The notes beneath the pieces are model-generated. The model saw nothing but the letters and a program-made list of their open reading frames with translations. It searched no databases and was not told the origin of the DNA. From Zoogloea sp. (GTDB taxonomy: Bacteria; Pseudomonadota; Gammaproteobacteria; Burkholderiales; Rhodocyclaceae), in contig NZ_JAQVCN010000001.1 of assembly GCF_028689785.1 (NCBI RefSeq), positions 124,001-188,000 of the forward strand: a stretch of 64,000 nucleotides of DNA. Direction: 5' to 3'. Every line of letters begins with the position of its first letter. Position 1 is the stretch's first letter. Both the position numbers and the translations under genes were made by a program. This document shows, piece by piece, positions 9,457 through 53,954 of this stretch.

Positions 9457-9532
9457 GAATGAGGAAGCACACGGTGGCCTGCCAACCCGCGGCCCACTCG
9501 ATGAATTCCAATCATGACCAAAGGTGATCCAG

Positions 9533-10796: not shown

Positions 10797-10800
10797 CCCT

Positions 10801-11745: not shown

Positions 11746-11829
11746 CCCCTCCAGCACCGCCCAAGCGACCGACTTCTGCACACCCATGGGCAAAACTGGA
11801 GCAATTGCTCCATCCTGGAGCAGCAATAC

Positions 11830-11855
11830 AAAAAGGCCCTCACGGGCCTTTTTGC
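11830..11855. terminator. Bidirectional intrinsic terminator
   Basis: AAAAAGGCCC, loop TCAC, then GGGCCTTTTT: a perfect stem flanked by A and T tracts. It serves the propeller gene on the plus strand and the cytochrome gene ending at 11872 on the minus strand. Confidence 0.9.
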
Positions 11856-11871
11856 TTATGTGAAGACTGGA

Positions 11872-12186
11872 TTACAGCTTGAGAATCCACTCCACCACCG
11901 CCTTCAGATCCGCATCGCTGATCTTGTCGGCCGGATGGGGAGGCATCGGGATCTGGCCCCAGTTACCGGTACCACCATGGCGGATCTTGGCGCTCAGCAC
12001 GGCCACGGCATCTGCCTGCCCCTTGTACTTGGCCGCCACGTCCTTGTACGCCGGACCGACGCGCTTTTGATCGACGGCGTGACAAGCCACGCAGCGAGCC
12101 TTCTTGATGATTTCCTCCGACGCCATGACGGGCGATACGGCAGCGAGACCCAGCGCGACAGCGCAAACCAGCTGGACAACTTTCAT
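11872..12186 (-). CDS. Small class I cytochrome c (c-551-like)
   Basis: A 104-residue precursor starting at the ATG whose complement ends at 12186, with GGAGGA nine bases upstream; an open extension to 12267 has no support. A signal peptide (LVCAVALGLAAVSPVMA) precedes a mature protein of about 80 residues with haem motif CVACH and the Met ligand in IPMPPHPADKISDADLKAVVEWIL, a c-551/c8-type layout. It is a periplasmic electron carrier, probably between the PQQ dehydrogenase/PedF chain and a terminal oxidase. It stands alone with a long upstream region that contains a sigma-54-like element. Confidence 0.9.
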   Translation of the reverse strand: MKVVQLVCAVALGLAAVSPVMASEEIIKKARCVACHAVDQKRVGPAYKDVAAKYKGQADAVAVLSAKIRHGGTGNWGQIPMPPHPADKISDADLKAVVEWILKL

Positions 12187-12611
12187 GACTATGCTCCTCC
12201 GAGTTCTGAATTGATTTTGATCAGCGAGGACGGGTCGGACTGTCCGGGAGAAAAAACCGGACGGCACGAAGCCGCCCGAAAACCGCCTTGCCTCCAGCTA
12301 TCAGCAAAAAGTGTGCAGCCCCTGAAAAAAGCGAAATATACATTTCCGTACAACAACTTAGAGGGCAACCCCGACATCCGGAGGAGCTCCTGCCGTGCTC
12401 AGGCCTTGCACACCTGCTCCATAGCGTTACGCCCGCAATGAACACTTGCTACCCCACCAGCTCGCTGCGCGCACGGGCAACTACAGCCCTGCCATGACAA
12501 CAGCCCTTGCAAACCCTTAGCTGACGGGATATCCAGACTGGACGCGGCTCGGCACATGCATATTTACAAAGCCCCTCACGCCACGGGCATGTTTCGTGCT
12601 GTTGAACCGGG
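12187..12611. promoter_or_regulatory. Divergent 425-bp regulatory region between cytochrome and activator genes
   Basis: No gene is seen. It holds a sigma-54-like element for the minus-strand cytochrome, a GTCCGG/CCGGAC inverted repeat (12242-12262) and the palindrome AGGAGCTCCT near 12380-12389. A separate sigma-54 promoter for the plus-strand activator was not found. Confidence 0.5.
12303..12318 (-). promoter_or_regulatory. Sigma-54-like promoter upstream of the small cytochrome gene
   Basis: Read on the minus strand: CTGCAC, five bases (ACTTT), TTGCT. Spacing and the -12 element are perfect, but the first G of the -24 GG pair is replaced by T, so it may be weak or false. It would give a leader of about 100 nt. 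Confidence 0.4.
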
Positions 12612-14477
12612 GTGAAAGACACGGACCCCAACGCCCCCCCCTTTTCCCCGGAAACCATCCGACGCTCCTGGGAGCGCTGCGTGGCAAGCGGACTACGACC
12701 CGACGAGCGCCTGATGGAGGATCGCGGCCACCCTGCCGGTCTGTCGGATCGCCTGGAGGCGAACGCTCGTCTGGTGACCTACGCCCAACCCATCATGGAG
12801 CATCTGCATCAGCAGATCGCCCGCAGCTCATCCACCATTCTGCTGGCCGACGAGACGGGCACCATCCTGCGTTCGGTGGGCGACGCCGACTTCCTCGAAC
12901 GGGCTGCCCGTGTCGCCCTGAAACCGGGCTACTCCTGGTCCGAAGCCGCAATGGGTACCAACGCCATCGGCACTGCCCTGGCCGAACAGCGTGCAGTCGC
13001 AGTGATCGGTGACGAGCACTACCTGGACCGCAACAAGTTTCTCACCTGCATCGCCACCCCCATCCAGGCGCCTACGGGGGGCGTACTGGGCATCCTCGAC
13101 GTATCCACAAGCGCCCGCCTGACCCAGGTGCACGCCCAGGCCCTGCTCCAGACCACCGCCGAGATCATCGAGAACCGACTGATCGAGACCGTTGCCGATG
13201 CGGCTGTGGTCATCCGCTTCCATCATCAGCCAGAAGCCCTCGCCTCGCCGCTGGAGGGCTTGGCGGTGTTCGACGAGATCGGCAACTTCCTGGCCTGCAA
13301 TCGGCGCGCCGAACGTCTCCTCGGCATTGCCGACACCCGCGTTACCCGGCCGCCCTTCTGGGAAATCTTCGAGACACGCTGGAACACCCTGCTAGACCAC
13401 GCCCTGCAGAGCAGCGCCCGACCAACCACCCTGCGCAGCCACCTGGCCCGTGAGTTTGTCGCTCACGTGCTGGTCAGCAACCTGCAGCGCGTACGCACCT
13501 CCCTAGCGGCCCGGGAGAACACCACCACCCCCAACGCCCGTAACCTGCCCACCCTCGACGACCTGGATCTGGGTGACAAAACAGTCAACCACGCCATCCG
13601 GCGCGCCCGGCGCATCCTCGGGCTGGACATCCCTTTGCTCATCCAGGGCGAAACAGGCACCGGCAAGGAAGTCTTCGCCCAGGCCTTCCACCTCAGCGGT
13701 CCGCGTCGCAGTGGCCCCTTTGTGGCCATCAACTGCGCCGCCATACCGGCCAATCTCATTGAGGCAGAGCTGTTCGGCTACACCCCGGGCGCCTACACCA
13801 GCGCCCGCAGCGAAGGCGCCCGCGGCAAGCTGCGCGAAGCTCACGGCGGCACCCTGTTTCTCGATGAAATCGGCGACATGCCCCTCAAACTCCAGGCCGT
13901 GCTACTGCGCGTGCTTGAAACCCGACGGGTCACACCCTTGGGGGGCGGGCCGGAAGAGTCCGTCGACCTGTCCCTGGTGTGCGCCAGCCACCGCTCCTTG
14001 AAGGCCCTGTGCGAGCGCGGGGAGTTTCGCCCTGATCTTTACTTCCGCCTTTCCGCCATGAGCCTTTCGCTGCCCGCCCTGCGCGAACGCAGCGACATCG
14101 ATGCCCTGGCGCGACGCCTGCTCCACGACGAATCCCCCGTGCGTCCGATCCGCCTGTCGGCCTCGTCCCTGGACCTGATCCGCCGTCATCCCTGGCCCGG
14201 CAATATCCGCCAGCTACGCAATGCCTTGCGCCTCGCCGCAGCCATGCTGACCTCCGACGAGGACACGCTGACCCCGGCACACCTGCCCCAGGAACTCACC
14301 GATGACCCGGACCTTCCCCCACCCACCCCGGCCGCCCAGAGCCTGCGCGCAGCCGAAAGCCGCCTGGTAGGTGACACCGTGGCTCGCCACAAAGGCAACA
14401 TCTCCGCTGCCGCCCGCGAACTGGGCATCACCCGCACAACCCTCTACCGCAAGCTCCGCCAGCAAGCCGCCCCCTGA
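12612..14477 (+). CDS. AcoR-type sigma-54-family regulator with altered GAFTGA loop
   Basis: A 621-residue relative of the activator at 7186. It uses a GTG start and has IRRSWERC, a GAF domain (TNAIGTALAEQRAVAVIGDEHY), an AAA+ domain with Walker A GETGTGKE and Walker B GTLFLDEIGD, and the C-terminal Fis HTH NISAAARELGITRTTLYRKL. The sigma-54 contact loop, GAFTGA in canonical activators, reads GAYTSA at residues 393-398. The F-to-Y change is tolerated in some activators, but the G-to-S change is unusual and could lessen or abolish sigma-54 activation, as in enhancer-binding proteins that act with sigma-70. Its targets are probably the neighbouring cytochrome or alcohol dehydrogenase genes. Confidence 0.88.
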   Translation: MKDTDPNAPPFSPETIRRSWERCVASGLRPDERLMEDRGHPAGLSDRLEANARLVTYAQPIMEHLHQQIARSSSTILLADETGTILRSVGDADFLERAARVALKPGYSWSEAAMGTNAIGTALAEQRAVAVIGDEHYLDRNKFLTCIATPIQAPTGGVLGILDVSTSARLTQVHAQALLQTTAEIIENRLIETVADAAVVIRFHHQPEALASPLEGLAVFDEIGNFLACNRRAERLLGIADTRVTRPPFWEIFETRWNTLLDHALQSSARPTTLRSHLAREFVAHVLVSNLQRVRTSLAARENTTTPNARNLPTLDDLDLGDKTVNHAIRRARRILGLDIPLLIQGETGTGKEVFAQAFHLSGPRRSGPFVAINCAAIPANLIEAELFGYTPGAYTSARSEGARGKLREAHGGTLFLDEIGDMPLKLQAVLLRVLETRRVTPLGGGPEESVDLSLVCASHRSLKALCERGEFRPDLYFRLSAMSLSLPALRERSDIDALARRLLHDESPVRPIRLSASSLDLIRRHPWPGNIRQLRNALRLAAAMLTSDEDTLTPAHLPQELTDDPDLPPPTPAAQSLRAAESRLVGDTVARHKGNISAAARELGITRTTLYRKLRQQAAP

Positions 14478-14576
14478 CCCCACAGGCGGGCGCCTCTGAC
14501 CCCGGGGGTGTGCCCGACGACCGGCTTCACTGGCTGTGGGATACTCCGGTCTGGATTGCCACCCGGAAAAAACGCC

Positions 14577-14948
14577 TTGAATCTCCGCCCTCTCGTCGTC
14601 TGTACAGCCCTTCTTTCCCTTTCGGCCTGCGCGCCCGCCCCCAGCCCGATACCCGCCGAAATGCAGGCCGAGTTTCAGCCTGGCATGAGCCTGGATGATG
14701 CCAGCCAGCGTCTCAGCGCGCGGGGCACCACCTTTTCTCTGAAGACTGAGGCAGAGTGCGCCGCCCTGGTGGAGCGCAGCCCCAACATCTCCCAGCTGCG
14801 ACCTCGCGGCGGCCCGTGCATCTTCGGCAAGATCCCCCTGTCGAAGACCTGGTTCGGCGGCCACACCGACGTCATCCTGCAGATCGTCTTCAGCGCCGAC
14901 AACACCCTGGCCGATGCCCACTTCGAGGAAATCGGCAGCCTGCTGTAA
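14577..14948 (+). CDS. Small putative lipoprotein of unknown function
   Basis: A protein of about 123 residues if started at TTG 14577, which places a clean lipoprotein signal at the N-terminus (NLRPLVVCTALLSLSAC, lipobox LSAC). The frame is open further upstream to 14508, but that extension looks non-coding. After the Cys: PSPIPAEMQAEFQPGMSLDDASQRLSARG, then a compact domain with a Cys pair (EAECAALVE, GGPCIFG). MSLDDASQRLSA resembles the helical repeat of small outer-membrane assembly lipoproteins, but I do not recognise a family. It follows the activator gene by 99 nt. Confidence 0.6.
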   Translation: MNLRPLVVCTALLSLSACAPAPSPIPAEMQAEFQPGMSLDDASQRLSARGTTFSLKTEAECAALVERSPNISQLRPRGGPCIFGKIPLSKTWFGGHTDVILQIVFSADNTLADAHFEEIGSLL

Positions 14949-14965
14949 GCCCCAGAAAAGGAAAA

Positions 14966-14994
14966 ACCCCGACGGGGGGACGACCGGGGTTCTT
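14966..14994. terminator. Bidirectional hairpin terminator
   Basis: AACCCCG ... CGGGGTT forms a GC-rich stem with an A-tract upstream and T-rich sequence downstream. It lies between the convergent lipoprotein and cytochrome genes. Confidence 0.7.
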
Positions 14995-15038
14995 CGATAC
15001 AGCATCCTTCACGGCCCAGGGCCGTGCGAGTCACGCCA

Positions 15039-15419
15039 TTACTTGGGCGACAGGGTCAGGATCCACTTCACCAGCTTCTTGGCGTCAGCCTCTTTGATGG
15101 CCACCTTGTTGGGGGGCATCGCCAGGCCGCTGACCTGATCCTTCCAGTGGCTGCCATAGGGGTTGGAGCCTTCCAGCACCACGCGGGTGAGGAAGGTGTC
15201 GGCGCCCGGCTTGCCCTTGTACATTTTGGCCACGTCCTGCCAGGCCGGGCCAATGGGGGCCATGCCGTTGGGGCCCGGGTTGCCGTGCTCGATGGAGTGA
15301 CAGGTCAGGCAGCCGCTCTTGGCAGCCAGCGCCTTCATGTCATCGTCCACTGCAGCAGAGGCGCTCGTCGCGGCCAGGCCCAGAGCGGCCAGCACTGCGA
15401 TCTTGCGTAAGGCGTTCAT
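15039..15419 (-). CDS. Class I cytochrome c
   Basis: A 126-residue precursor with signal peptide (RKIAVLAALGLAATSASA), haem motif CLTCH, the loop NPGPNGMAPIGPAWQDVAKMYKGKP and the Met ligand in GLAMPPNKVAIKEADAKKLVKWIL. It is a periplasmic electron carrier of the c-551/c5 type. A ribosome site (GGAGAAG) lies just upstream. It is 46 nt behind the response regulator gene on the same strand, so the kinase, regulator and this cytochrome may form one transcript. That context suggests it works in alcohol oxidation. Confidence 0.9.
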   Translation of the reverse strand: MNALRKIAVLAALGLAATSASAAVDDDMKALAAKSGCLTCHSIEHGNPGPNGMAPIGPAWQDVAKMYKGKPGADTFLTRVVLEGSNPYGSHWKDQVSGLAMPPNKVAIKEADAKKLVKWILTLSPK

Positions 15420-15465
15420 CTTTCTTCTCCTTGGCTAAAAAAGGGCTTCCATCCGTGCGAGCCTG

Positions 15466-16116
15466 TTACGCGGGGCTGGCCGACCAGTCGATCAGCCCGT
15501 AGCGCGCAGCAAGCCGCAGCAGCTTGAAATCGTTGTCGGCATCCAGCTTCTGGCGGATGGCGGACATGTGGTTATGGATCGTCTTCTGACTCAGGTGCAT
15601 GGTGCTGGCAATGGCGCCGGGCGACTCGCCACTGGCAGCCAGACGCAGCACGTCGAACTCCCGCGGGGTCAGCCGCGACAGCAGGGCCTCACCATCAAGG
15701 GCGGCACCGGCCAGGGCCTGAGCCACATCGGGGGACAGCACCCGCCGGCCAGCAGCCACATCTCGGATGGCGTCGAGCAGCTCCGCAGGCTCGCTGTTCT
15801 TGGTCAGATAACCCAAAGCCCCCACCCGCATGGCCTGAGTCACGTAGCTCGGGTTGTCATGCATGGACACCACCAGCACCCGCAAGCCGGGCTCCCGGGC
15901 CAGCATGCGGCGGATCGCGTCAATGCCACTACTGCCGCGCAGGTTCAGGTCGACGATGGCCAGATCGGCCCCGCGCTCCACCAGGCGGGCATAAGCTTCA
16001 TCGGCCGAGGCAGCCTCGCCGACAACCTGCATGCCCTCTTCTGCGTCAAACAGGCGCCGATAACCATTGCGCACCACCGCATGATCTTCCACCAGCAGAA
16101 TCCGGATCATGCCCAA
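15466..16116 (-). CDS. NarL/FixJ-type response regulator (PedR/ExaE-like)
   Basis: A 216-residue regulator. The receiver domain has the acidic pair E10-D11, phospho-acceptor Asp56 (IVDLNLRG), a Ser/Thr switch region (VVSMHD) and a Lys in GYLTKNSEP. The C-terminal LuxR-type HTH reads LTPREFDVLRLAASGESPGAIASTMHLSQKTIHNHMSAIRQKL. It follows the sensor kinase gene by 7 nt and is divergent, as a unit, from the quinoprotein alcohol dehydrogenase gene. That matches the arrangement of LuxR-type regulators of PQQ ethanol dehydrogenases in pseudomonads. Its specific target is inferred from position. Confidence 0.9.
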   Translation of the reverse strand: MGMIRILLVEDHAVVRNGYRRLFDAEEGMQVVGEAASADEAYARLVERGADLAIVDLNLRGSSGIDAIRRMLAREPGLRVLVVSMHDNPSYVTQAMRVGALGYLTKNSEPAELLDAIRDVAAGRRVLSPDVAQALAGAALDGEALLSRLTPREFDVLRLAASGESPGAIASTMHLSQKTIHNHMSAIRQKLDADNDFKLLRLAARYGLIDWSASPA

Positions 16117-16123
16117 ACCCTCC

Positions 16124-17419
16124 TCACGCCGGCCCCTGAGCCAGCGGCAGACTTAAATGCACACGCAGGCCGCCGCCGGGGGCTTCGTCCAGCCAGCAAC
16201 GCCCTCCAGCCATCTCGGCCCGCTCCCGCATACCCAGCAGACCACCTCGTGCCTTGCGCACCACGTCGGCCACCTGCCCGACACCGTTGTCACACACCGT
16301 CAACTCCACCGCCCGGCCGACCTGATGCAGTGACAAGCGGACCCGGCTGGCCACGCTATGGCGCAGCACATTGGTCAGGGACTCCTGCAGAGTCCGATAC
16401 AGGGCAAGCCCGGCGGCCGGCGGCATGGCCGGCAGGGTCGGCGGAAATTCCGTCTCAATGCCGATATCGGGCGCCCGGCCGCGCCAGCCACTGACCAGAT
16501 CGTTGAGCGCATCCACCATCTGCAGGCCTTCCAGGCCATGGGGACGCAACTGGGAAAGCAGGGTGCGCACCTGACCGATCATGCGGGTCGCTTCATTGCG
16601 TATGTCTCGGGCACTTTCCGCCAGGTCTTCCGGGGAGGCCCGGCCGGCATGGCGTTCGATGTAAGCGGCGGAAATATTGACAGCCGTCAAGGCCTGACCG
16701 AATTCATCGTGCAACTCCCGTGCCAACTCCCGGCGTTCGCTTTCCTGCAGTTCAAGCAGTTGGCGGGCGAGCTGCTGACGCGCTGCGCGGGTCTCGGCAA
16801 GCTCAGCCGACAAGCGCTCCATCGCACCGGCGATGCTGGCAAATTCCTTGAGGCGAAAAGGCGGCAGGCTGATCTTCTCCTCGCTGCGGCCAATGCGGGC
16901 GAGGCCCTGCTCCAGTTCCCGCACCGGCTTCAGGGCCCGGTGGGCTGCAAGCCAGGCGACGGCCGCCATGGCCAGGGAAAACAGCAGCAGGGTGGCGATG
17001 ATGCGTATGCCATCACGCAACACCTCGTGGATCTCGGCTCGGGCGTCGGCGCGGATCACCAGAGTGCCGTCTCCCAGGGGGATGCGACGCTCGTGGATCT
17101 CGCGCCCCTGCATAAAGTAATCCACCAGCGCCGGCAACACGCCGGCGGCAGGTGCTGCCACGCCCTGCTCCAGATTGGAGCGCTCCACGGACAGCGCAAC
17201 GTGTCGCAACTGACCACCTGCCAGCAGCGCCTCCAGCTCGCCCGCCCGCTGGCCGTCCGAAGCGCGCAGGGCCAGGATGGTGTTGACCAGACGGGTCGAG
17301 GCCTCCATTTCTTCGGCCACGTCCTCCTGCAGGGCCAGCCCCACCCAGGCAACGGTCATCGCCAGCAATGCCATGGCAAAACCGAGCACATAACCAAACA
17401 GTCTCCAGCGCAGATCCAT
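16124..17419 (-). CDS. Membrane histidine kinase, HisKA_3 family
   Basis: A 431-residue sensor. I start at the ATG whose complement ends at 17419, which has GGGAGG upstream and begins directly with a membrane helix (RLFGYVLGFAMALLAMTVAWVGLAL). A periplasmic sensor of about 120 residues lies between this and a second helix (IIATLLLFSLAMAAVAWLA). HAMP-like sequence follows, then a coiled coil, the dimerisation H-box RELARELHDEFGQALT with His237, the N-box LQESLTNVLRH, and an ATPase domain (DNGVGQ, GGLLGMRERAEMAGG). It would phosphorylate the adjacent regulator in response to a periplasmic cue, plausibly an alcohol, metal or quinoprotein state. Confidence 0.9.
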   Translation of the reverse strand: MDLRWRLFGYVLGFAMALLAMTVAWVGLALQEDVAEEMEASTRLVNTILALRASDGQRAGELEALLAGGQLRHVALSVERSNLEQGVAAPAAGVLPALVDYFMQGREIHERRIPLGDGTLVIRADARAEIHEVLRDGIRIIATLLLFSLAMAAVAWLAAHRALKPVRELEQGLARIGRSEEKISLPPFRLKEFASIAGAMERLSAELAETRAARQQLARQLLELQESERRELARELHDEFGQALTAVNISAAYIERHAGRASPEDLAESARDIRNEATRMIGQVRTLLSQLRPHGLEGLQMVDALNDLVSGWRGRAPDIGIETEFPPTLPAMPPAAGLALYRTLQESLTNVLRHSVASRVRLSLHQVGRAVELTVCDNGVGQVADVVRKARGGLLGMRERAEMAGGRCWLDEAPGGGLRVHLSLPLAQGPA

Positions 17420-17484
17420 GTCTGCCTCCCTCTTCTTGTAATAGCTCGATGAGCAGCAAGGCATGTGCCAGATCCCGGAAGAGG

Positions 17485-17511
17485 CGGGAAAACTTCCCGT
17501 CCCCGAGGGGA
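17485..17511. promoter_or_regulatory. Two adjacent palindromes upstream of the alcohol dehydrogenase gene
   Basis: CGGGAA-AAC-TTCCCG (17485-17499, 6-bp arms) is followed immediately by TCCCC-GA-GGGGA (17500-17511). They lie in the 214-bp divergent region, about 120-150 bp before the dehydrogenase ATG. They could be the response-regulator operator. The link is inferred from position. Confidence 0.4.
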
Positions 17512-17633
17512 TGCGTTCCCACGACAGGGGCCGGAGGCGCCTTCCATACTGCGCCTCGTTCCGGGCCAAGGCGCCGAATGGGAGGCAGGCCCGGAAGCAA
17601 CGAACGACAACATTCCGGAGACAAGGACTCACC

Positions 17634-19502
17634 ATGAAAAACAGACGTGTCAATCTCAAGCCCGGCCTGCTGGCCCTCGCCCTCACTACGGCCTTCGCCA
17701 TCCCGGCCCAGGCCGTCGGCACCAAGGTCACCTGGGACGACATCCGGAACGACGACAAGACCCCCGGCGACGTGCTCTCCTACGGCCTCGGCCTCAAAGC
17801 CCAGCGCCACAGCACCCTGAAGACGGTCAACACCAAAAACGTGGCCGGCCTGGTGCCCGCCTGGAGCTTCTCTTTCGGCGGCGAAAAGCAGCGCGGCCAG
17901 GAAAGCCAGGCCCTGGTGCACGACGGCGTGATCTACGTGACCGCCTCCTACTCCCGCATCTACGCCATCGATGCCCGTAGCGGCAAGCGCCTGTGGGAAT
18001 ATGAAGCCCGCCTCCCGGAGGATATTCGCCCCTGCTGTGACGTGGTGAACCGCGGTGCAGCCATCTACGGAGACAAGATCTACTTCGGCACCCTGGATGC
18101 GGGCATCGTGGCCCTCAACAAGGACACCGGCAAGGTGGCTTGGCGCAAGAAGTGGGGTGATCACAAGGTCGGCTACACCATGACCGGCGCCCCCTTCGTG
18201 ATCCAGGACCAGAAGAGTGGCAAGGTTCTGCTGGTGCATGGTTCGTCGGGTGACGAGTTTGGCGTGGTGGGCTGGCTGTTTGCACGCGACCCGGACACCG
18301 GCGAGGAAGTGTGGGCACGGCCGATGGTTGAAGGCCACATGGGCCGCCTGAATGGCAAGGACAGCACCCCCACCGGCGACGCCAGCGCCCCGAGCTGGCC
18401 GAAGGACAAGGACGGCAAGCTTACCGAGGCGTGGCATCACGGTGGCGGCGCACCGTGGCAGACCCCGAGCTATGACTACGAACGCAACATGGTCGTCGTC
18501 GGTACCGGCAACCCGGCGCCGTGGAACACCTGGAAGCGGACCCAGGAAGGCGATGATCCGCGCAACTGGCCCAGCCTGTTCACCTCTGGCCAGGCCTATG
18601 TGGACGCCAGCACTGGCGAACTCAAGGGCTTCTTCCAGCACACCCCGAACGATGCCTGGGACTTCTCCGGCAACAACTCCGTGGTGCTGTTCGAATACAA
18701 GGACCCGAAGACCGGCAAGCTGGTCAAGGCCTCCGCCCATGCCGACCGCAACGGCTTCTTCTTCGTGACCGACCGCGAGAAACTCGCAACCGGTGCGGGC
18801 TACCCCAACAAGCCCACCTCCCTGATCGGCGCCTGGCCGTTCGTCGAGGGCATCACCTGGGCCAAGGGCTGGGATCTGAAGACCGGTCAGCCGATCGAGA
18901 ACGACAACCGCCCCCCGAAGGTCAAGGATGGCGCCGAGAAGGGTGACAGCGTCTTTGTGTCCCCCCCCTTCCTGGGCGGCACCAACTGGATGCCCATGTC
19001 CTACAGCCCGGATACCGGCCTGTTCTACATCCCTGCCAACCATTGGGCCATGGACTACTGGACCGAGAACCTGACCTACAAGGCCGGTTCTGCCTACCTG
19101 GGCCAGGGCTTCCGCATCAAGCGCCTGTTTGACGACCACGTCGGCACCCTGCGCGCCATGGATCCGAAAACCGGCAAGATCGTCTGGGAACACAAGGAGA
19201 AGTTCCCCCTGTGGGCGGGCACCCTCACCACCGCCGGCGGTCTGGTGTTCACCGGCACCTCCGACGGCTATGTGAAGGCCTTCGATGCCAAGAACGGCAA
19301 GGAACTGTGGAAGTTCCAGACGGGTTCCGGCGTGGTGTCCGTGCCCATCACCTGGGAAATGGACGGCGAGCAGTACATCGGCCTGGCCTCGGGCTATGGT
19401 GGCGCCGTGCCCCTGTGGGGCGGCGACATGGCCGACCTGACCAAGCAGGTCACCCAGGGCTCGTCCTTCTGGGCCTTCAAGCTGCCCAAGAACGCGCGCT
19501 GA
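17634..19502 (+). CDS. PQQ-dependent alcohol (ethanol/methanol-type) dehydrogenase
   Basis: A 622-residue periplasmic quinoprotein of the ExaA/PedE/MxaF class that oxidises primary alcohols to aldehydes and passes electrons to cytochrome c-550. A signal peptide ([16 protein letters not shown]) precedes eight W-motif blades, for example [28 protein letters not shown]. The vicinal disulfide Cys134-Cys135 ([11 protein letters not shown]), needed for electron transfer, is present. The active-site segment reads DAWDFSGNN: catalytic Asp343 is followed two residues later by Ser345. Lanthanide enzymes (XoxF/PedH type) have an extra Asp at that position, so this is predicted to use Ca2+. GGAG lies 15 nt before the ATG. 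A strong terminator follows. Confidence 0.94.
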
Positions 19503-19510
19503 GCAAGGCA

Positions 19511-19552
19511 GCCCCGGGCCGGAACACCTCCGGCCGGCCCGGGGCTTTTTCC
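19511..19552 (+). terminator. Strong intrinsic terminator after the alcohol dehydrogenase
   Basis: AGCCCCGGGCCGG pairs with CCGGCCCGGGGCT, followed by a T tract. It separates the dehydrogenase from the downstream pentapeptide and cytochrome genes, giving independent or attenuated expression. Confidence 0.88.
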
Positions 19553-19681
19553 CTTTCCGCCCCCGTAGGGTCGAGCTTATTCGATCCGCTCACACTGATG
19601 ACCGGCAAGCCGCTGAGCACAATCCGCGGTCGAATGAACGCGCCCCCTAACGGGACGGCCGCATCCACAAGGAGTCTCCCC

Positions 19682-20263
19682 ATGCTTCGCCCACCATTGT
19701 TCGCGCTGCTGGCAGGGCTGGCCTTGATCGCCACGCCCGCCTCCGCCGCCGGCAACCCCGCCGAGCCCCAGGTTTACGGCAGTTGCGGCATGTGGCCCCA
19801 CGCCCGCTGCCGGGGCGCCGACCTGCGCCACAAGGATCTCTCCGCTCTCGACCTGGCCGGCGCCGACTTCACAGGTGCCAATCTTGCCCGGGCTGACTTG
19901 CGTGCCGCCAACCTCGCTGGCGCGATTTTTGACGGCGCCGACCTGAGCGGTGCCCGCATGGCCAAAGTCAACGCCCCAGGCGCCTCCTTCCGCAATGCCA
20001 AACTGATCGGCACCGACCTGGAGTTCGCCAAGCTGATGCGCGCCGACTTCAGCGGCGCCGACCTCACAGTGGCCAACCTGGAAGCCGCCCGCACGCCCTT
20101 CGCCTGGTTCGTCGGTGCCCGCCTGACCAACGCCAACCTGCAGGAAACCAAGTTCAACGCCACCAACCTGCGTAAAGCCAACCTGGAAGGCGCACTGCTG
20201 CGCTACACCATCTTCCCTGACTCCTCCTTCGAGGGCTGCACCGGCTGCCCCACCGACTGGTGA
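19682..20263 (+). CDS. Exported pentapeptide-repeat protein
   Basis: A 193-residue protein with signal peptide (LFALLAGLALIATPASA) and AAGGAG before the ATG. The mature part is almost entirely A(D/N)LXX repeats: GADLRHKDLSALDLAGADFTGANLARADLRAANLAG and later copies, which would form a right-handed quadrilateral beta-helix. Cysteines cap both ends (GSCGMWPHARC and GCTGCPTDW). Pentapeptide proteins are also seen beside PQQ alcohol dehydrogenases elsewhere; the function is not known. The stop codon overlaps the GTG start of the next cytochrome gene, implying translational coupling. Confidence 0.85.
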   Translation: MLRPPLFALLAGLALIATPASAAGNPAEPQVYGSCGMWPHARCRGADLRHKDLSALDLAGADFTGANLARADLRAANLAGAIFDGADLSGARMAKVNAPGASFRNAKLIGTDLEFAKLMRADFSGADLTVANLEAARTPFAWFVGARLTNANLQETKFNATNLRKANLEGALLRYTIFPDSSFEGCTGCPTDW

Positions 20264-20730
20264 CTCCCATGGCCGCCCCCCTCCTGCTTCGCCTGAGCGC
20301 CGTGCTGCTGATCCTGAGCAGCCCCGTGCTCGCTGCCGAAATTGCCGACCCCAACGTCGTCGTCGACACATCAAGCCTGCCTCCCATTGCCACCAATGCC
20401 CCTGAGGGCAACCCCTACCGGGGCAACACCCAGGCAGCCGAGATCGGCCGCACCGCCTTCAACCAGGCCTGCTCCCGCTGCCACGGCATCGACGCCATCA
20501 ACAAGGGACAAGTCGGCCCCGACCTGCTCAAGATGGACCGCTCCTGCCCGCGCATCGCCGACCCGACGGTCCGCCAGCTATGCGTGCTTGATCAGGATGA
20601 TTTTTTCATGAAGTCGGTCCAGGACGGCAAGACCCGGGTCGGCATTGTGCACATGCCCGCCTGGAAAGACGTGCTGTCACCGGCCGCCATCTGGACGATC
20701 CGTAGCTTTCTGGAAAGCCGCAGCCGCTGA
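20260..20730 (+). CDS. pedF: Second PedF-like cytochrome c-550
   Basis: A 156-residue precursor from GTG 20260, which overlaps the previous stop; ATG 20269 is an alternative. A signal peptide (LSAVLLILSSPVLAAE) is followed by the PedF signature DTSSLPPI...NPYRGNTQAAEIG, haem motif CSRCHG, an inserted Cys-containing loop (DRSCPRIADPTVRQLCVLDQ) absent from the paralogue at 9533, and Met ligand VHMPAWKD. It is the probable direct electron acceptor of the alcohol dehydrogenase encoded upstream. Confidence 0.87.
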   Translation: MTPMAAPLLLRLSAVLLILSSPVLAAEIADPNVVVDTSSLPPIATNAPEGNPYRGNTQAAEIGRTAFNQACSRCHGIDAINKGQVGPDLLKMDRSCPRIADPTVRQLCVLDQDDFFMKSVQDGKTRVGIVHMPAWKDVLSPAAIWTIRSFLESRSR

Positions 20731-47042: not shown

Positions 47043-47696
47043 ATGGCCGTCACCCTCACCCTGAGCAGCAAGAATTACTCGTCCTGGTCCCTGCGCGGCT
47101 GGCTGATGGCCCGCTTCGCCGGGCTCAGCTTCAAGGAAGAAATGGTCGAACAGGACGACGCCGGCGCCCGCGCCGAGCTCCTGCTGCTGGCCCCCTCGGT
47201 GCGCGTCCCGCGCCTGACCCACGGAGACATCTCCGTCTGGGACACCCTGGCCATCGGCGAATACCTCAACGAGCTCAAGCCCGATGCCGGGCTGCTGCCC
47301 GCCGATGCCGCCGCCCGCGCCCACTGCCGCTCCATCTGCGGCGAGATGCACTCGGGTTTCAGTGCCCTGCGCTCGGCCCTGCCCATGAACCTGAAGGCCC
47401 ATTTCCCCAAGTTCACGGTGTGGTCGCGGGCCAATGGCGACATCGAACGGGTCACCGAGATCTGGCGCGACTGCCTCACCCGCTACGGCGGCCCCTACCT
47501 TTTCGGTGCCCGGCGCAGCATGGCCGACGCCATGTACGCCCCGGTGGCGACCCGCTTCATCACCTACGACGTGCCCCTCGACGAGGCCTGCGCGGCCTAT
47601 TGCCAGACCATCATGGCCATGCCCGAGATGGGCGAATGGGTGGTCGCTGCAAAGCTCGAACCCGACGATATCGAAGAGCTGGAAGTGGAATTCTGA
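47043..47696 (+). CDS. Glutathione S-transferase
   Basis: A 217-residue cytosolic protein with an N-terminal thioredoxin-fold domain (LTLSSKNYSSWSLRGWLMARFAGLSFKEEMV, S/Y near the N-terminus as candidate catalytic residue, and RVPRLTHGDISVWDTLAIGEYL carrying the cis-Pro and glutathione-binding residues) and an all-helical C-terminal domain. Substrate unknown; probably detoxification. Hairpins follow the stop (47727-47755 and 47779-47798). Confidence 0.9.
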   Translation: MAVTLTLSSKNYSSWSLRGWLMARFAGLSFKEEMVEQDDAGARAELLLLAPSVRVPRLTHGDISVWDTLAIGEYLNELKPDAGLLPADAAARAHCRSICGEMHSGFSALRSALPMNLKAHFPKFTVWSRANGDIERVTEIWRDCLTRYGGPYLFGARRSMADAMYAPVATRFITYDVPLDEACAAYCQTIMAMPEMGEWVVAAKLEPDDIEELEVEF

Positions 47697-47726
47697 AGGA
47701 CGCTTTCGCACCGTCCTGATGCAGGC

Positions 47727-47755
47727 GCCTGCCGGTGGTGCATGGGCCGGCAGGC
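47727..47755 (+). terminator. Hairpin downstream of the GST gene
   Basis: GCCTGCCGG and CCGGCAGGC form a perfect 9-bp stem over an 11-bp loop. A second hairpin (GGCCGA/TCGGCC) follows at 47779-47798. Neither has a clear T tract. Confidence 0.5.
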
Positions 47756-47980
47756 AGGGGTCGCCCCCCGCCCTCACCCGGCCGAAAAAACTCGGCCGCA
47801 GCGCAAATTTGGCATACTCAAGCGAGATCCCGGCCCGGTAGAATCTTCGGTGACAGCCCAGATCCGGACTGTTCAAATCCAGCTCGCCCACCAGGGGCAA
47901 CGGTGCAGACCTGCGCCACAAAAAGAGCGGATCGATTCGCCCATCGACCCCAGCACAGATCCCAGCCAGAGGAAGCCATC

Positions 47981-48763
47981 ATGCACCACGGTGAAACATC
48001 CCCCCGTCCTGCCACATCGCCCAAGCCTGGCGCACGGGCCGTCGCCCTGCTGCTCGCCGCCAGCCTGTCCCTGAGCGGATGCCAGTCCGGTGGCCTGGGC
48101 GCCGCCCAGACCGGCAACGCCGGCGGCGGCACCGCCGGCAACACGTCCGCCACCCAGACCAATCCCTGGAACGCCTGCATCATCGGGGCGGTGGTCGGCG
48201 CGGTGGGCTTCACGGTCTATACCCAGTACGTCAATCGCAAGGGCGGCGGGGCCAAGTTCTCGGCCGCCGACCAGCGCAAGATCCTCGCCGCGGTGGTGCT
48301 CGCCGGCTGTGCGATCCCCGCCGCCGCAACCGCCATCGGCAACGCCTTCAAGAACGATGCCGACCGGGTCCGCCACGAAGACGCCTTCGCCCGCGCCGCC
48401 AAACGCGCCGGTCAGCCAGGCAGCAACGATCGCGAGCGTGAGCGCATCATCGAGCAGTACGAGAAGCTCCCCCCGGCCCGCAACCCGGCCGACAAGCGCA
48501 AGCGGGACGAAGAGCTGAAGCGCCAGCTGGACAAGCTCGGCACCCCGACGGTGGAAGAAACCTGGACCAGCGAAACCGGCACGGGCGGCGTGGAAATCGG
48601 CGGGCCGGTGAAAGACCCGACGGTCTCCGGGCAGGACTGCCGCTACATGAAGGAATACGTCCGCAACCCCGAAGGCCAGCAGGTCCAGAACAAGGTGTAC
48701 GCTTGCCGCAAGGGCCCGGGCGAGCAGTATGTGCGGGTGGATCCCAACATCATGCAGGGGTGA
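47981..48763 (+). CDS. Lipoprotein, first gene of a four-gene envelope operon
   Basis: 260 residues from ATG 47981, with AGAGGAAG upstream. A lipoprotein signal (VALLLAASLSLSGC, lipobox LSGC near residue 34) is followed by a Gly/Thr/Ser-rich linker, then two hydrophobic Gly/Ala segments (ACIIGAVVGAVGFTVYTQY and ILAAVVLAGCAIPAAATAIGNAF) reminiscent of a glycine-zipper hairpin. A charged helical stretch (NDRERERIIEQYEKLPP, DKRKRDEELKRQLDKL) follows, and a C-terminal Cys-paired domain (DCRYMKEYVRNPEGQQVQNKVYACRKG). No family recognised. It is followed after 5 nt by the ClpP-fold gene, so both are cotranslated. An outer-membrane-attached scaffold is a guess. Confidence 0.75.
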   Translation: MHHGETSPRPATSPKPGARAVALLLAASLSLSGCQSGGLGAAQTGNAGGGTAGNTSATQTNPWNACIIGAVVGAVGFTVYTQYVNRKGGGAKFSAADQRKILAAVVLAGCAIPAAATAIGNAFKNDADRVRHEDAFARAAKRAGQPGSNDRERERIIEQYEKLPPARNPADKRKRDEELKRQLDKLGTPTVEETWTSETGTGGVEIGGPVKDPTVSGQDCRYMKEYVRNPEGQQVQNKVYACRKGPGEQYVRVDPNIMQG

Positions 48764-48768
48764 GCCCC

Positions 48769-50139
48769 ATGGCCTTCGCAACACCCGCGCACCGCCGCTG
48801 GCAGCTCGCCATGGCCTGCCTGCTGGCCGGCGCCGCCCTGGGGGCCAGGGCCGCCGAATCCAACGCCGAACGCTTTCCCTGCCGGCAGTTCAAGGAGGGT
48901 GGCTGGGCCGTGCTTGCCCACAACAGCATCCAGGGCGAGGTCCGCTACCATGATGGCCGGGTCGAGCCCGGTGACGGCGAGCTGCTGAAACGCGCCATCA
49001 ACGCCTGCAAGCGCAACGGGCCGGTTCGGCTGGTGGATTTCAGCTCCCCGGGCGGCAGCGTGGATGAAGGGATCAAGATGGCCCTCAACATCCGTGAAGC
49101 CGGCCTGGACACGCAGATCAGCCCGGGCAGCCACTGCACCAGCGCCTGCACCTTTGCCTTCCTGGGGGGCGTCAATCGCTCCATCTCCCCAACGGCAAGC
49201 TACAACGTCCACGCTTTCAGCAGCTTCATGGCCGATCCCCAGTCCTGTAAGACGATCGGCCCCGGCAGCCTCAATGCTGCCGGCCGCGTCGCCATCGTCT
49301 ACCTCGTTGCCCTGAACCGATCGCTGGGTGCCGGTCTGTCGGAAGTTGACATCACACGTGCTTTCATCGAATACGGAAAGCGCGTCCAGTGCAACCCGCA
49401 CTCAAATATGCCGGCCAAGTTCGATCTGGCCATCCCCATGTACCTGCCGGTGGCGACCATCTTCCGCAAGGAGCTCATCCGCTTCGAGATGGAATCGGCC
49501 CGCAGCATGCTCGGCCTCGTCTCCGGCAACGAGTTCGGCAACCGCCTCCGCCACACGGCGGGTGCCTCCCCCGCGCAGCGCTACGACCGTTGCGAACAGC
49601 TGAGCACCGAGATCTACGGTCCAGACTCGAAATTCATGCGGGAGCGCATGGCCGCCCGGGACAACGTGGGCGCCCTGTTTCCCCGCTTCGAGGCCCATGT
49701 GGTCAACATGGAGATCCTTGATGCGCTGGCCGTGCGCTTCCCCGAGGTCAAAGCGCGCCTCGACGCGGTCATCCGCAAATCCGGCCAGCAGCAGTCCCTG
49801 CAGCAGTGGCGCAGCCTGCCCTTGAACAAGCAGAAGCAGACCAGGCCGCCCGCGATCCCCGAGATCGACCAGCTGGCCGCCCTCATCCGCGACGGCACCG
49901 ACAACCCACCCCCCATCATGGGCCTGAAGACACTGGAGCCGGAGAGTTTTTCCGGGGCCAAGCAGCTGTTCTGCCTGATCGAGGGCCTTGGCGATGTGCG
50001 CCTCCCGGGCAACAGCGGCACCCCGAGCTACCTGGACCGCATGTTCTCCGTGTCCATCCTCACCACCAAGGCCGTCGATCGCCAGGAGCTGCAGGCCATG
50101 GACATCATTACCGATGCGGAAGGAGGCAGCCCGCGATGA
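48769..50139 (+). CDS. Exported ClpP/crotonase-fold protease-like protein
   Basis: 456 residues with signal peptide (LAMACLLAGAALGARA). The first half resembles periplasmic ClpP-like (COG3904-type) proteins: VRLVDFSSPGGSVDEGIKMALNIREAGLDTQ supplies the oxyanion glycines, CTSACTFAFLGGVNRSI places Ser125 as the candidate nucleophile between Cys123 and Cys127, and YNVHAF places His148 as the candidate base, close to the Ser97-His122 spacing of ClpP. The second half (about 200-456) is helical and unique. The stop overlaps the next start (ATGA). A periplasmic serine peptidase or chaperone-like role is inferred from the fold; no activity is established. Confidence 0.75.
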   Translation: MAFATPAHRRWQLAMACLLAGAALGARAAESNAERFPCRQFKEGGWAVLAHNSIQGEVRYHDGRVEPGDGELLKRAINACKRNGPVRLVDFSSPGGSVDEGIKMALNIREAGLDTQISPGSHCTSACTFAFLGGVNRSISPTASYNVHAFSSFMADPQSCKTIGPGSLNAAGRVAIVYLVALNRSLGAGLSEVDITRAFIEYGKRVQCNPHSNMPAKFDLAIPMYLPVATIFRKELIRFEMESARSMLGLVSGNEFGNRLRHTAGASPAQRYDRCEQLSTEIYGPDSKFMRERMAARDNVGALFPRFEAHVVNMEILDALAVRFPEVKARLDAVIRKSGQQQSLQQWRSLPLNKQKQTRPPAIPEIDQLAALIRDGTDNPPPIMGLKTLEPESFSGAKQLFCLIEGLGDVRLPGNSGTPSYLDRMFSVSILTTKAVDRQELQAMDIITDAEGGSPR

Positions 50140-51470
50140 AACCCGCAACCCGCCTGCGCAGGCTCGGCGCCGCAGCCCTGCTCGCCGCCGTCTCATGCGC
50201 CCACGCCACCGACGCCCCAAAGAGCACGCAGCTCATCGCCGCCGTCGAGAACGTGCTCGGTGACAAGCTGGGCGAAGCGCGGGTTGAGGCCCGGGTGCAC
50301 TGGACCCAGCTCAACGCCGACGGCCTGGTGGACGCCATCGTCGTGGTGCGCAACCAGAATACCGGCGACTGTTTTCCCGACCAGGGGGTGATCTGCCAGC
50401 TGATGGTGTTCCGCGGCCAGCCGGACGGCTTCGAGCGCATCTACCGCAGCACCATCGACGAACGCGGCGTGGCCCTCGCCGCCCCGGGCGCCGCCGGCCT
50501 GCGCGAGCTCGTGCACTTCTACCGCCCCGCCGGTGCCGAGCGCGCGCCCTACGCCGTGCGCGCCGCCGAAGGTGGCTACCGGCGCAGCCCGACGCCCCTC
50601 AGCCGCGAGGAGTTCGACAACCCGGCGCGCCAGCAGCTCCAGCTGCGGGCCGATTTCGAACCCCTCGGCCCGGCTGCCACCCCGTCGGCCATGCCGGCCC
50701 TGGGGGGCACGGTGCTGCGCGCCTACGGCTCCAGCGTCCTTCCCGCCCAGAACATCCTGCGTTTCGATAAGACCGGCCTGCAGCTGATGGAGGCCGCAGC
50801 GAAGAGCTGGCGGGAAACCGAGCCCCTGCTGGCCAATCAGCTGGGCAAGCTCGCCGGGCGCCAGCTCCTCACCCGCTCCGTCACCCTCTCCTTCCAGGCC
50901 TGCAACGACTGGATCTCGATCGTCCGGCGGCGAGTGGAAGTGAGCGGCGCCGAAGACGTGCCCCTCTGCTACGAATACCTCATCCAGACCGGCGGCGAGG
51001 CCAACCCGCCTGCTGCGCTGTTCTACGCCCTCGGCTCCCTCGGCCCGGCGCTGCTGCGCTTTTCCGACCAGCCCCTGCCGCGGCAGCCCGACGACGAAGG
51101 CTTCCGCGGCTACCTGGCGGGCTACCTCGTTCCCGACCGGGAAAGCGCCCGTGCCCTGTGGACGGTGGATGGCCCCCGCTATTACCGGGAGATGGGCGAG
51201 CTGTTCATCAAGGTCACCGACACCGACAAGGCCGAGGACAGCATCTTCCGTCGCGACTTCGCCGTCCGCTTCGGCGCCATGGCCTGCGCCCTGCGCCTGC
51301 GCGACAAGGCCGCCTACGACCGGCTGCTCGGCGCCGCCGACGGCATCCGCAACGACGACGTGTTCGCCAACGGCGAAACCCGCAACGTAGCCCTCAGCCA
51401 CTGGGCCCGCAGTACCGAAAAACAATGCGCCGAAGCCGCCAGCTGGCTCAAGACCCGAGGTATCCAGTGA
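50136..51470 (+). CDS. Exported protein with a possible degenerate DUF4344-like metallopeptidase domain
   Basis: 444 residues with signal peptide (LRRLGAAALLAAVSCAHA). The N-terminal part (ENVLGDKLGEARVEARVHWTQLNADGLVDAIVVVRN) looks like a small alpha-beta domain with a Cys pair (GDCFPDQGVICQL). The C-terminal half has VTLSFQACNDWI...VPLCYEYLI, then LGSLGPALLRFSDQP. As I remember the DUF4344 family, this position reads HELGH in a similar frame, so the zinc ligands would be lost (HELGH to GSLGP). It overlaps both neighbours and is surely cotranslated with them. Function unknown; a pseudo-enzyme partner of the ClpP-fold protein is one hypothesis. Confidence 0.7.
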   Translation: MKPATRLRRLGAAALLAAVSCAHATDAPKSTQLIAAVENVLGDKLGEARVEARVHWTQLNADGLVDAIVVVRNQNTGDCFPDQGVICQLMVFRGQPDGFERIYRSTIDERGVALAAPGAAGLRELVHFYRPAGAERAPYAVRAAEGGYRRSPTPLSREEFDNPARQQLQLRADFEPLGPAATPSAMPALGGTVLRAYGSSVLPAQNILRFDKTGLQLMEAAAKSWRETEPLLANQLGKLAGRQLLTRSVTLSFQACNDWISIVRRRVEVSGAEDVPLCYEYLIQTGGEANPPAALFYALGSLGPALLRFSDQPLPRQPDDEGFRGYLAGYLVPDRESARALWTVDGPRYYREMGELFIKVTDTDKAEDSIFRRDFAVRFGAMACALRLRDKAAYDRLLGAADGIRNDDVFANGETRNVALSHWARSTEKQCAEAASWLKTRGIQ

Positions 51471-52654
51471 TGATCCGTCAAGCCCTCCTTCTGAGCACGA
51501 TCCCTGCCGCCCTGCTGCAAGGCTGCGCCTCCATCCCCCTCGAAGGCAACGAAACGGTGGTCTGCTACCACCCCAAAGCCATGGGCATCAGCGCACCCTA
51601 CGGGCAGTACGCCCTGGTCGCCAGCAACCCGCTGGCCTCATCGCAAGCCGCGCCTGTGACCACGCCGGACCTGCGCCGTCGCCTCCCCACCCCGGCAGCG
51701 CCCGGCGCCACGCCCGAGCGGGTGGTGGACCGCAGCAGCCCCGACAGCCAGAGCGGCAGCCTGTGCTTCACCCTCACCGCCTACAGCGCCCAGGCTGCCC
51801 AGAGCAGCGGCACCTGCCTCGCCGTGCGGGGCCCCCGCGGCCTGCTGCCGGTGCGTGAAGGCGCCTCGCGTTTCGGCATCACCTGGAAGGAAGCAGGCTT
51901 CCGCAACCCCCTGTGGGAACGGGCCCTGAGTGCCGAGCAAGCCGACGCCGGCAATATCCGCCAGCGCGCCGACGCGCTTGCCACCCAGGAAGACGCCCGC
52001 AGCGCCATTGAAACCCGCCGCACCGGCCTGGCCCAGCAGGGTTTCACCCGCCGGGAAGACTGCGAGCGGGACACCAAGGCCAGCCCCGCCACCCCGCCCC
52101 GGCCTGCGCTGGCCGTGGATGAAACCGTCCGTGCCGGCACCGCCCGCAGCCTGTGCGCCGACAGCTGGCGCAGCGTGTTTGGCGGCGACGCACGCAAACT
52201 CTTCAGCCTCGCCCGCATGGACGCCGACTGGACCACAGCTGCCAGCGCCCCCCGCAGCACGGACCTGCCCAAACCCGTCCAGGGCCTGCTCCCGGCCGCA
52301 CGTCTGAGCGCCTCCGACCGCGGCCTGCTCAAGAGCGCGATCGGTGACAGCGAAGCGGACGCCGACATCATCGACATCTTCAGCCGCCTCCAGACCCGCT
52401 GCGTTGCTGGCCTCGGCGAAGCCATGAAGAGCGGCTTCCAACAGTGGCAGGAACGCCAGCGCATGGCCCTGGCCGCCCCGGCGGAACGGCGCAGCGCCTG
52501 TCTGGCCCTGTTCGACGGCATGGACCGGGACCAAGCCCGCCTAGACGAGGCCACGCGTCAGATCCAACGCATCGATGCCGAGCGGGCAGCCAGTGGCAGA
52601 GGGCCCCTGACCCCGGGCAAACCCATCGACCTGCGCAACATGAGCTGTGGCTGA
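51470..52654 (+). CDS. Lipoprotein, last gene of the envelope operon
   Basis: 394 residues from ATG 51470, which overlaps the preceding TGA (TGATG). Lipoprotein signal (LLSTIPAALLQGC, lipobox LQGC near residue 20). The body has scattered Cys (VVCYHPKAMG, LCFTLTAY, SGTCLAV, REDCERD, SLCADSW, TRCVAGL, RSACLALF, NMSCG), a coiled, charged C-terminal region (ERRSACLALFDGMDRDQARLDEATRQIQRIDAERA) and no recognised domain. Found with three other exported proteins, so it probably acts in the same periplasmic complex. It is convergent with the patatin gene. Confidence 0.72.
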   Translation: MIRQALLLSTIPAALLQGCASIPLEGNETVVCYHPKAMGISAPYGQYALVASNPLASSQAAPVTTPDLRRRLPTPAAPGATPERVVDRSSPDSQSGSLCFTLTAYSAQAAQSSGTCLAVRGPRGLLPVREGASRFGITWKEAGFRNPLWERALSAEQADAGNIRQRADALATQEDARSAIETRRTGLAQQGFTRREDCERDTKASPATPPRPALAVDETVRAGTARSLCADSWRSVFGGDARKLFSLARMDADWTTAASAPRSTDLPKPVQGLLPAARLSASDRGLLKSAIGDSEADADIIDIFSRLQTRCVAGLGEAMKSGFQQWQERQRMALAAPAERRSACLALFDGMDRDQARLDEATRQIQRIDAERAASGRGPLTPGKPIDLRNMSCG

Positions 52655-52684
52655 GAGGCCCCCTTGCCCCGCCGCAGAAGGCGC

Positions 52685-53734
52685 CTAGCGGAACAGCGTA
52701 TCCACGTCCACCGACTCCCGCAGGCCCACGCTGGCCAGGTCGGCGTGGATCCAACGCGCGGCCCTGGCACGCCCCAGGTCGCGCAGCATGTGCAGGAAGG
52801 AGCGGGTAGCGTTGAGCTTGCTGGCCGTGCCGGCCTGGGCCAGCTCCTCCGCCTCGATCAGGTGAAAGCGCAGGGCCATCAGCTTGCGCTCGAAGCGCCC
52901 CAGAGGCATCCAGCCCTCCCCTTCGGCAATGTGCCGGCGGGCATGGGCGATCATGCGCATCTCCCGCAGAAAGGTGGTCGAAAAGCCCAGCTCCACGCTG
53001 CGCGCGGCGATCTCCTCGGCGCTGCGTGGCGCCTCGGGCCTCATCAACGGATTGAGCAGGATCAGCAGGATGTCCGGCGTGCTGCATTCGTACATCAGCG
53101 GATACACCGCCGGATTGGCCGTAAAGCCCCCGTCCCAGTAGGCCTCGCCATCAATCTCCACAGCGTGGTGCAAGGTGGGCAGACAGGCCGAAGCCAGCAG
53201 CGCCTCCTCGCTCAGTTCAGAGGTCTGGAACAACCGCACCTTGCCCGTGCGCACCCGGGTGGCGGCAATGAAGAGCTTGAGGCGGCAGTCGCGCCGGATG
53301 CGCTCGAAATCAAACTGGGCCCGCACCACATCGCGCAGGGGGTTCAGCTCCAGGGGGTTGAGCTGATAGGGTGAGAAGAGCCGCGTCAGCCCCAGCATCA
53401 TCGCCATGGGCGCCGGCAGCGACCCGTCCCCTGCCGGGTTGAGGCTGTGCAGCAGCTCCAGCTCCAGGGGCGTGGAATCGGCCACCGCCTCCCAGAAGGC
53501 ATGCAGGCTGGCCCGGGCGCCCTCGGCACCACCGGTGGTCCAGCCCTGGGCCAGAGCCACCGCGTTCATGGCCCCGGCACTGGTGCCGCTGACGCCCTCC
53601 AGGGTAATTCCCTCCTCCAGCAAACGGTCCAGCACGCCCCAGGTGTAGGCACCATGGGCGCCGCCCCCCTGCAGGGCCAGGCTCAGACACTTCGGCCTGG
53701 CAACTTCCTTCTTCCACCAGCGACGGATCGACAT
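52685..53734 (-). CDS. Patatin-like phospholipase
   Basis: A 349-residue protein from the ATG complementary to 53732-53734. Catalytic dyad and oxyanion hole are present: LALQGGGAHGAYTWGVLD (Gly-rich loop), GVSGTSAGAMNA (nucleophile Ser in GTSAG), and YWDGGFTANPAVYPLMYE (catalytic Asp in DGG). A lipid acyl hydrolase; the lack of a signal peptide suggests a cytosolic or inner-membrane role. A TGC-N3-GCA box lies 28-36 nt upstream. Confidence 0.9.
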   Translation of the reverse strand: MSIRRWWKKEVARPKCLSLALQGGGAHGAYTWGVLDRLLEEGITLEGVSGTSAGAMNAVALAQGWTTGGAEGARASLHAFWEAVADSTPLELELLHSLNPAGDGSLPAPMAMMLGLTRLFSPYQLNPLELNPLRDVVRAQFDFERIRRDCRLKLFIAATRVRTGKVRLFQTSELSEEALLASACLPTLHHAVEIDGEAYWDGGFTANPAVYPLMYECSTPDILLILLNPLMRPEAPRSAEEIAARSVELGFSTTFLREMRMIAHARRHIAEGEGWMPLGRFERKLMALRFHLIEAEELAQAGTASKLNATRSFLHMLRDLGRARAARWIHADLASVGLRESVDVDTLFR

Positions 53735-53761
53735 GGCTTCATCCCCTTTCAGGTGATTTGC

Positions 53762-53770
53762 TGCAATGCA
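53762..53770. promoter_or_regulatory. TGC-N3-GCA box upstream of the patatin gene
   Basis: TGCAATGCA in the context TTTGCTGCAATGCACAA. It has the PhaR-like palindrome also present at 26052. It sits between the patatin start and the divergent EamA gene. Confidence 0.35.
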
Positions 53771-53954
53771 CAATACCTGAAGGATGGACGCACAGGGGTT
53801 GCAGAAGTTCGATGTTGCCTATAAGACACGAAATGCCAGCACTGCCGTCTGCCGGGTCAATCTGTTGCCGTCAAAAACACCCTGCCCTGAATCTGTGCAG
53901 CGTCCCCCGCCCGTGCTCTACTCACCATCCGCCAGACAAGCCCATCCACGCCCC

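Follow-up and report, generated by a model that had tools for sequence, protein, structure and literature searches.

The window analyzed here, 64,000 nucleotides of Zoogloea sp. DNA (contig NZ_JAQVCN010000001.1, positions 124,001 to 188,000 of the forward strand), contains an operon of four genes, A to D. The operon is a genuine envelope gene set of sparse distribution, and its A-B core is conserved. We propose, at a probability of roughly 45%, that it encodes an outer-membrane-anchored periplasmic ClpP-like peptidase in which the lipoprotein A would be the core partner of the putative peptidase B, and C and D would be added adaptors. Positions are window coordinates unless a locus (L) is named.

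The operon and its four proteins

A sequence-only reading of this DNA had described four coupled genes at 47981–52654, and that layout is confirmed (Table 1). The A and B genes are separated by a 5-nt gap, B and C are joined by ATGA, and the C-D junction reads GTGATG (given as TGATG in the earlier reading), such that D may start at either GTG 51467 or ATG 51470. Judged by eye, the lipoboxes of A and D are LSLSGC (Cys34) and LLQGC (Cys19), and both B and C have signal-like N-terminal stretches; the earlier description, two lipoproteins flanking a ClpP-fold protein and a signal-peptide protein with all four exported, agrees with starts and lipoboxes assigned by eye. Its further description of the proteins as Cys-rich holds only mildly, the counts being 5, 9, 7 and 9 in A to D.

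Table 1. Coordinates of the operon, of the predicted active site of B and of the flanking genes in the 64-kb window.
Feature	Coordinates	Strand	Remarks
Gene A	47981..48763	+	260 aa; predicted lipoprotein, diverged glycine-zipper type
Gene B	48769..50139	+	456 aa, ATG start; putative exported ClpP-like serine peptidase homologue
Gene C	50136..51470	+	444 aa; exported protein, no family assigned; overlaps B by ATGA
Gene D	51470..52654	+	394 aa, ATG start (or GTG 51467); second predicted lipoprotein, no family assigned
B codons 123-127, motif C-T-S-A-C	49135..49149	+	predicted nucleophile flanked by two cysteines
B Ser125	49141-49143	+	predicted nucleophile, from alignment and PH1510-N register
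B codon 148	49210..49212	+	predicted catalytic His, 23 residues beyond Ser125
Extra stretch carrying the operon	47697..52684	.	between GST-like gene and patatin-like gene
GST-like gene	47043-47696		named by eye; left flank of operon
Patatin-like gene	52685-53773	minus	named by eye; right flank of operon

All four look like genuine genes under purifying selection. Compared with a second Zoogloea genome (G010), the ratio of nonsynonymous to synonymous substitution rates (dN/dS) is 0.115 for A, 0.270 for B, 0.239 for C and 0.138 for D; five flanking genes give 0.077–0.211 in the same comparison, so that B and C are slightly higher, with all values well below 1. A promoter scan returned a single site, within D, and none ahead of A. 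The terminator scan gave seven sites, against an expectation of 3.9, and every one is on the minus strand. Scanning the window for Rfam families and tRNAs returned no match.

The earlier description of the proteins as having no recognized function is supported by profile searches of Pfam and NCBIfam, in which none of the four proteins exceeds a curated cut-off. None of the operon proteins matches PADLOC up to E 1, A, C and D have no PHROGs match up to E 0.1, and the C and D profiles have no match among Protein Data Bank (PDB) sequences up to E 10. The A protein has two hydrophobic segments rich in Gly and Ala, and two conserved cysteines form a pair in its C-terminal part; in contrast to the glycine-zipper lipoproteins (PF13488, PF05433), the two hydrophobic segments carry Cys. 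Neither of those Pfam cut-offs is reached by window A, and both are exceeded by the A proteins of two relatives (G578 and G518), to which window A is linked stepwise through a third genome, G347 (window A to G347 A, 2e-8; G347 A to the G578 A frame, 8.6e-5 to 1.2e-4). Because these linked proteins pass, the A family is assigned to the glycine-zipper lipoproteins, of which window A is a diverged member as predicted from these matches. Invariant cysteines are found beyond the lipobox at positions 66, 110, 220 and 242 of A (four rows) and 116, 198, 229, 311, 344 and 393 of D (five rows), and at positions 79, 87, 256 and 431 of C (three rows).

The predicted active site of B and its family

The predicted nucleophile of B, Ser125, follows SPGG, after the Gly-rich strand, the position expected of a ClpP-like nucleophile. 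Both Ser125 and His148 are invariant in an alignment of five B members, with the His at +23, and the same Ser and spacing are present in all eight A-linked B rows of the tree described below; the B of G518 has the Ser, and its sequence stops at a contig end before the His position. The sequence-only reading had suggested an inactive peptidase partner. The putative ClpP-like site retains both its Ser and its His, so inactivity is rejected as the default for B, and no claim of activity is made in its place.

Matches to characterized families are distant. B matches a PHROGs 'protease' family (E 1.9e-5), its best ClpP-related NCBIfam match is E 0.071 with 13.1 bits against a curated cut-off of 120, and no Pfam family is found up to E 10. 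The best PDB match of the B profile is PH1510-N (E 0.027), with the catalytic Ser97 of that protein aligned to Ser125 in a register counted by hand. The 'ClpP-fold' assignment of B is thus a prediction from sequence.

Inspection by eye of the B-like domain at 46 loci gives C-x-S-[A/S/G]-C in 39, C-x-T-[P/L]-C in six and an unclear motif in one. The pattern GG...CxS[AS]C...GG...H is common to B and most of these loci and would place B in an exported ClpP-like family annotated as 'putative periplasmic protein', presumably COG3904; none of the A, C and D genes adjoins the relatives that fall outside the A-linked branch. The placement of the predicted nucleophile between two cysteines makes a redox-controlled active site possible. 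The six relatives in which CxT[P/L]C replaces CxSxC (L122, L129, L130, L131, L134 and L135) lie outside the A-linked branch, and five of them have no His by eye; the B family therefore has a sub-branch that is probably inactive.

Relatives and the insertion site

A profile of B finds relatives at 22 places in 20 of 399 sampled genomes of the order. One of these, G347, belongs to another family and carries all four genes consecutively in the order C''-D''-A''-B''; in each of the three operons with four parts, C and D could overlap by GTGA. BLASTP of the window proteins against those of G347 gives 1e-12 for C, 2e-8 for A and 0.007 for D. In a search of 4,816 reading frames, profiles built from the four-part clade of Zoogloea detect the G347 proteins at 7e-10 (A), 3e-9 (C) and 3e-5 (D), and the reverse searches of the Zoogloea proteins from G347 give 1e-11, 3e-10 and 1e-7. 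The low E-values for A and D are unsafe by themselves because unrelated frames score similarly, and these two links lean additionally on gene position, the lipobox and conserved cysteines.

Four more genomes have an A-like stretch immediately before B: three of one genus (G578, G518 and G450) and one of another family (G693). Contig ends truncate A in G450 and B in G518. The A of G693 (L080 4340–4860) is apparently split over frames, with only the C-terminal part in frame with the match. No C or D turned up elsewhere in the four, three of which are 84–88% complete, and 18 further B loci from a set of 297 Zoogloea-family genomes have no A, C or D nearby, the upstream side of the one in G740 being cut. 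Genes resembling B commonly occur without any of A, C and D.

The A-linked B domains nevertheless group together. In a tree of 35 domains, the eight A-linked rows fall into a single group, separate from the 25 that lack A (support 89/82); the A-linked group of a 37-row tree has support of 88/88, and none of 500 shuffles of the 35-row tree is as clustered. The 37 rows are drawn from the 46 loci by excluding seven without the motif, G776 (a false motif match) and G518 (a contig end); the 35-row tree also excludes the long branches G610 and G588, and leaves G740 and G037, whose contigs begin near the gene, ungrouped. The sequence-only reading is supported in part, in that the parts recur together in more than one lineage. 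Its fixed four-part complex is not supported, since C was not found in two Zoogloea genomes described below (G004 and G006), neither C nor D was found in the genomes with A-B only, and relatives of B often stand without the other genes; C appears dispensable. That reading turned on whether homologues occur apart: the wide B family fails as a strict partner, and the A-linked B branch holds.

Candidate D matches were rejected in six other genomes. One, in G119 (L011), is an out-of-frame stretch within a gene that by eye resembles formate dehydrogenase, and is spurious, and those in G450, G522, G057, G476 and G446 (E 0.002–0.006) were discarded as weak. No second D was found in the four genomes of the family of G347, and C was found only in G000 among a class sample of 248 genomes. 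B relatives are present in 54 plasmid records and one phage; the four plasmid or phage relatives examined have no A, C or D alongside, C was not found on plasmids, and pattern scans of viral contigs for B, C and D found no relative. The B relative of Agrobacterium phage Atu_ph08 (L097 1371–2021) is annotated as a putative periplasmic protein.

Within Zoogloea, B is present in four of 23 genomes and the full set in two (G000 and G010), at the same place, between the GST-like and patatin-like genes. These flanking genes are present in 10 and 22 of the 23 genomes respectively, with both in nine. In the other seven of these (G001, G005, G009, G011, G017, G018 and G022) they adjoin, with 61–375 nt between matches, and the operon is therefore an extra block at one site in two species. 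No repeat within 47600–52800 joins both borders of the block. The 375-nt gap of G017 (L041) contains a large inverted repeat with arms like GTCGGACTGAAGTCCGAC. The second version of the operon, in G006 and G004, has the order A'-B'-D', with A' and B' joined by ATGA and a 14-nt overlap of B' and D'; A' of G004 is truncated by a contig end, and C was not found anywhere in the sequence of either genome (80–82% complete).

The G347 operon (L142 4717–17758) lies between alpha-2-macroglobulin and PBP1C-type genes, all on one strand. Upstream is a 2,033-codon frame whose C-terminal part matches bMG10, a bacterial alpha-2-macroglobulin domain (1.6e-32), and downstream is a PBP1C-type gene with Transgly, Transpeptidase and BiPBP_C domains; C-D-A-B is flanked there by counterparts of the two genes of the alpha-2-macroglobulin/PBP1C operon (yfhM-pbpC). 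According to passages of PMC4498604, yfhM is frequently in an operon with pbp1C, and the pair has been proposed to act in periplasmic defense and repair. By eye, no such genes stand beside the operon in the 64-kb window. Elsewhere in the window (9500–20730) lies what, by eye only, resembles an alcohol-oxidation cluster: several small genes of c-type cytochrome-like proteins, a large one for an exported dehydrogenase-like protein and two long ones that resemble regulators.

Proposed mechanism and alternatives

The analysis establishes the genes themselves, the way they occur together and are ordered, the conservation of Ser and His in B and the purifying selection, whereas the fold, location, activity and complex formation of the operon proteins and any role in envelope defense are inferred. 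B would be exported to the periplasm and adopt the fold of a ClpP-like serine peptidase, with Ser125 and His148 as its active site. The residue after the lipid-bearing Cys guides lipoprotein sorting (the +2 rule), and Gln in A and Ala in D predict the outer membrane for both, where they would hold B. A would be the core partner, and D and C additions that may select or deliver substrate.

Prc of E. coli is reportedly a periplasmic serine protease with an outer-membrane lipoprotein adaptor, NlpI. CtpA-LbcA of Pseudomonas aeruginosa, in which the adaptor of a periplasmic serine protease is likewise an outer-membrane lipoprotein (PMC8764530), is the nearest working analogy for the proposed arrangement of B with a lipoprotein. 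However, in contrast to both pairs, no S41, PDZ or TPR family is found in the window proteins or in the scanned relatives of C, D and A, and those systems have nothing that corresponds to two lipoproteins plus C. B falls outside the CtpA family because no PDZ or S41 domain was found. The membrane serine protease PH1510-N (NfeD/STOPP), in register with B at an E of only 0.027, has a Ser97-Lys138 catalytic dyad (PMC3795559), and thus a Lys at +41 where B has a His at +23. Searches of the open-licence literature, with subscription papers outside their scope, found no description of this gene set among the titles and abstract openings listed, and no paper on an exported or periplasmic ClpP; PMC12419801 describes a different arrangement.

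Several observations weigh against the proposed peptidase. There is no invariant Asp in the five-member B alignment to serve as a third catalytic residue, and predicted models from two-row alignments are unusable (mean pLDDT of 34.8 for C and 36.2 for B). The full sets come from three genomes in two families, and three of the four genomes with A-B belong to one genus. The Zoogloea D profile matches the unrelated out-of-frame L011 stretch at 9.8e-8, better than it matches the G347 D. Between the two Zoogloea versions, A scores 0.003–0.05 with an unrelated frame at 0.009, and the range for D is 9e-5 to 0.005, within which unrelated frames fall at 0.001–0.002. Some of the tree rows had gone into the profiles that located the B loci, and near-copies inflate the shuffle test. 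The alpha-2-macroglobulin context is only a lead from one genome.

A non-enzymatic role, in which the ClpP-like fold of B is a scaffold and the proteins form a disulfide-linked envelope assembly, is unlikely. The invariant cysteines beyond the lipobox are even in number in A (4), C (4) and D (6), and the six CxT[P/L]C relatives indicate that the site can be lost within the family; against this, Ser125 and His148 are unchanged in the A-linked members. It is likewise doubtful that A and B cooperate alone, with C and D being envelope proteins that share the transcription unit and no common mechanism. The four genomes with A-B and neither C nor D, and the two Zoogloea genomes in which C was not found, are as this would predict; three of the former are 84–88% complete and the latter two 80–82%. 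However, barring the dropped weak matches, C and D were found only alongside A and B, in two families and with differing gene order, a point limited by one D search, which used a Zoogloea-only profile and did not report the G347 D, although that D was probably in its sample.

A mobile or competition cassette encoding an exported toxin with lipoprotein immunity is very improbable. The presence of the full set at one site in two of 23 Zoogloea genomes and its absence there in seven, its patchiness elsewhere, and the B relatives on plasmids and in a phage would suit such a cassette, but no repeat joins the borders, no mobile gene is seen by eye beside the operon, PADLOC gave no match, PHROGs none for A, C or D, plasmids no C, and the pattern scan of viral contigs no relative of B, C or D. 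Also improbable, if less so, is an extended form of the peptidase proposal, in which the operon would encode a self-contained periplasmic clearance machine. Its outer-membrane-tethered, ATP-free ClpP-like peptidase, which the periplasmic redox state could switch through CxSxC, would degrade proteins passed on by two new adaptors, and the machine would clear proteins that are trapped or damaged, alongside alpha-2-macroglobulin and PBP1C.

ClpP-type peptidases are best known as ATP-driven machines of the cytosol. An exported ClpP-like branch with an apparently intact Ser-His site would offer an experimental handle on envelope proteolysis, and one B sub-branch travels with a glycine-zipper lipoprotein, in some genomes together with two families that lie below all cut-offs. 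The recurrence of similar sets in a few other genomes suggests an undescribed cell-envelope machine, which may be a new player beside the alpha-2-macroglobulin/PBP1C pair.

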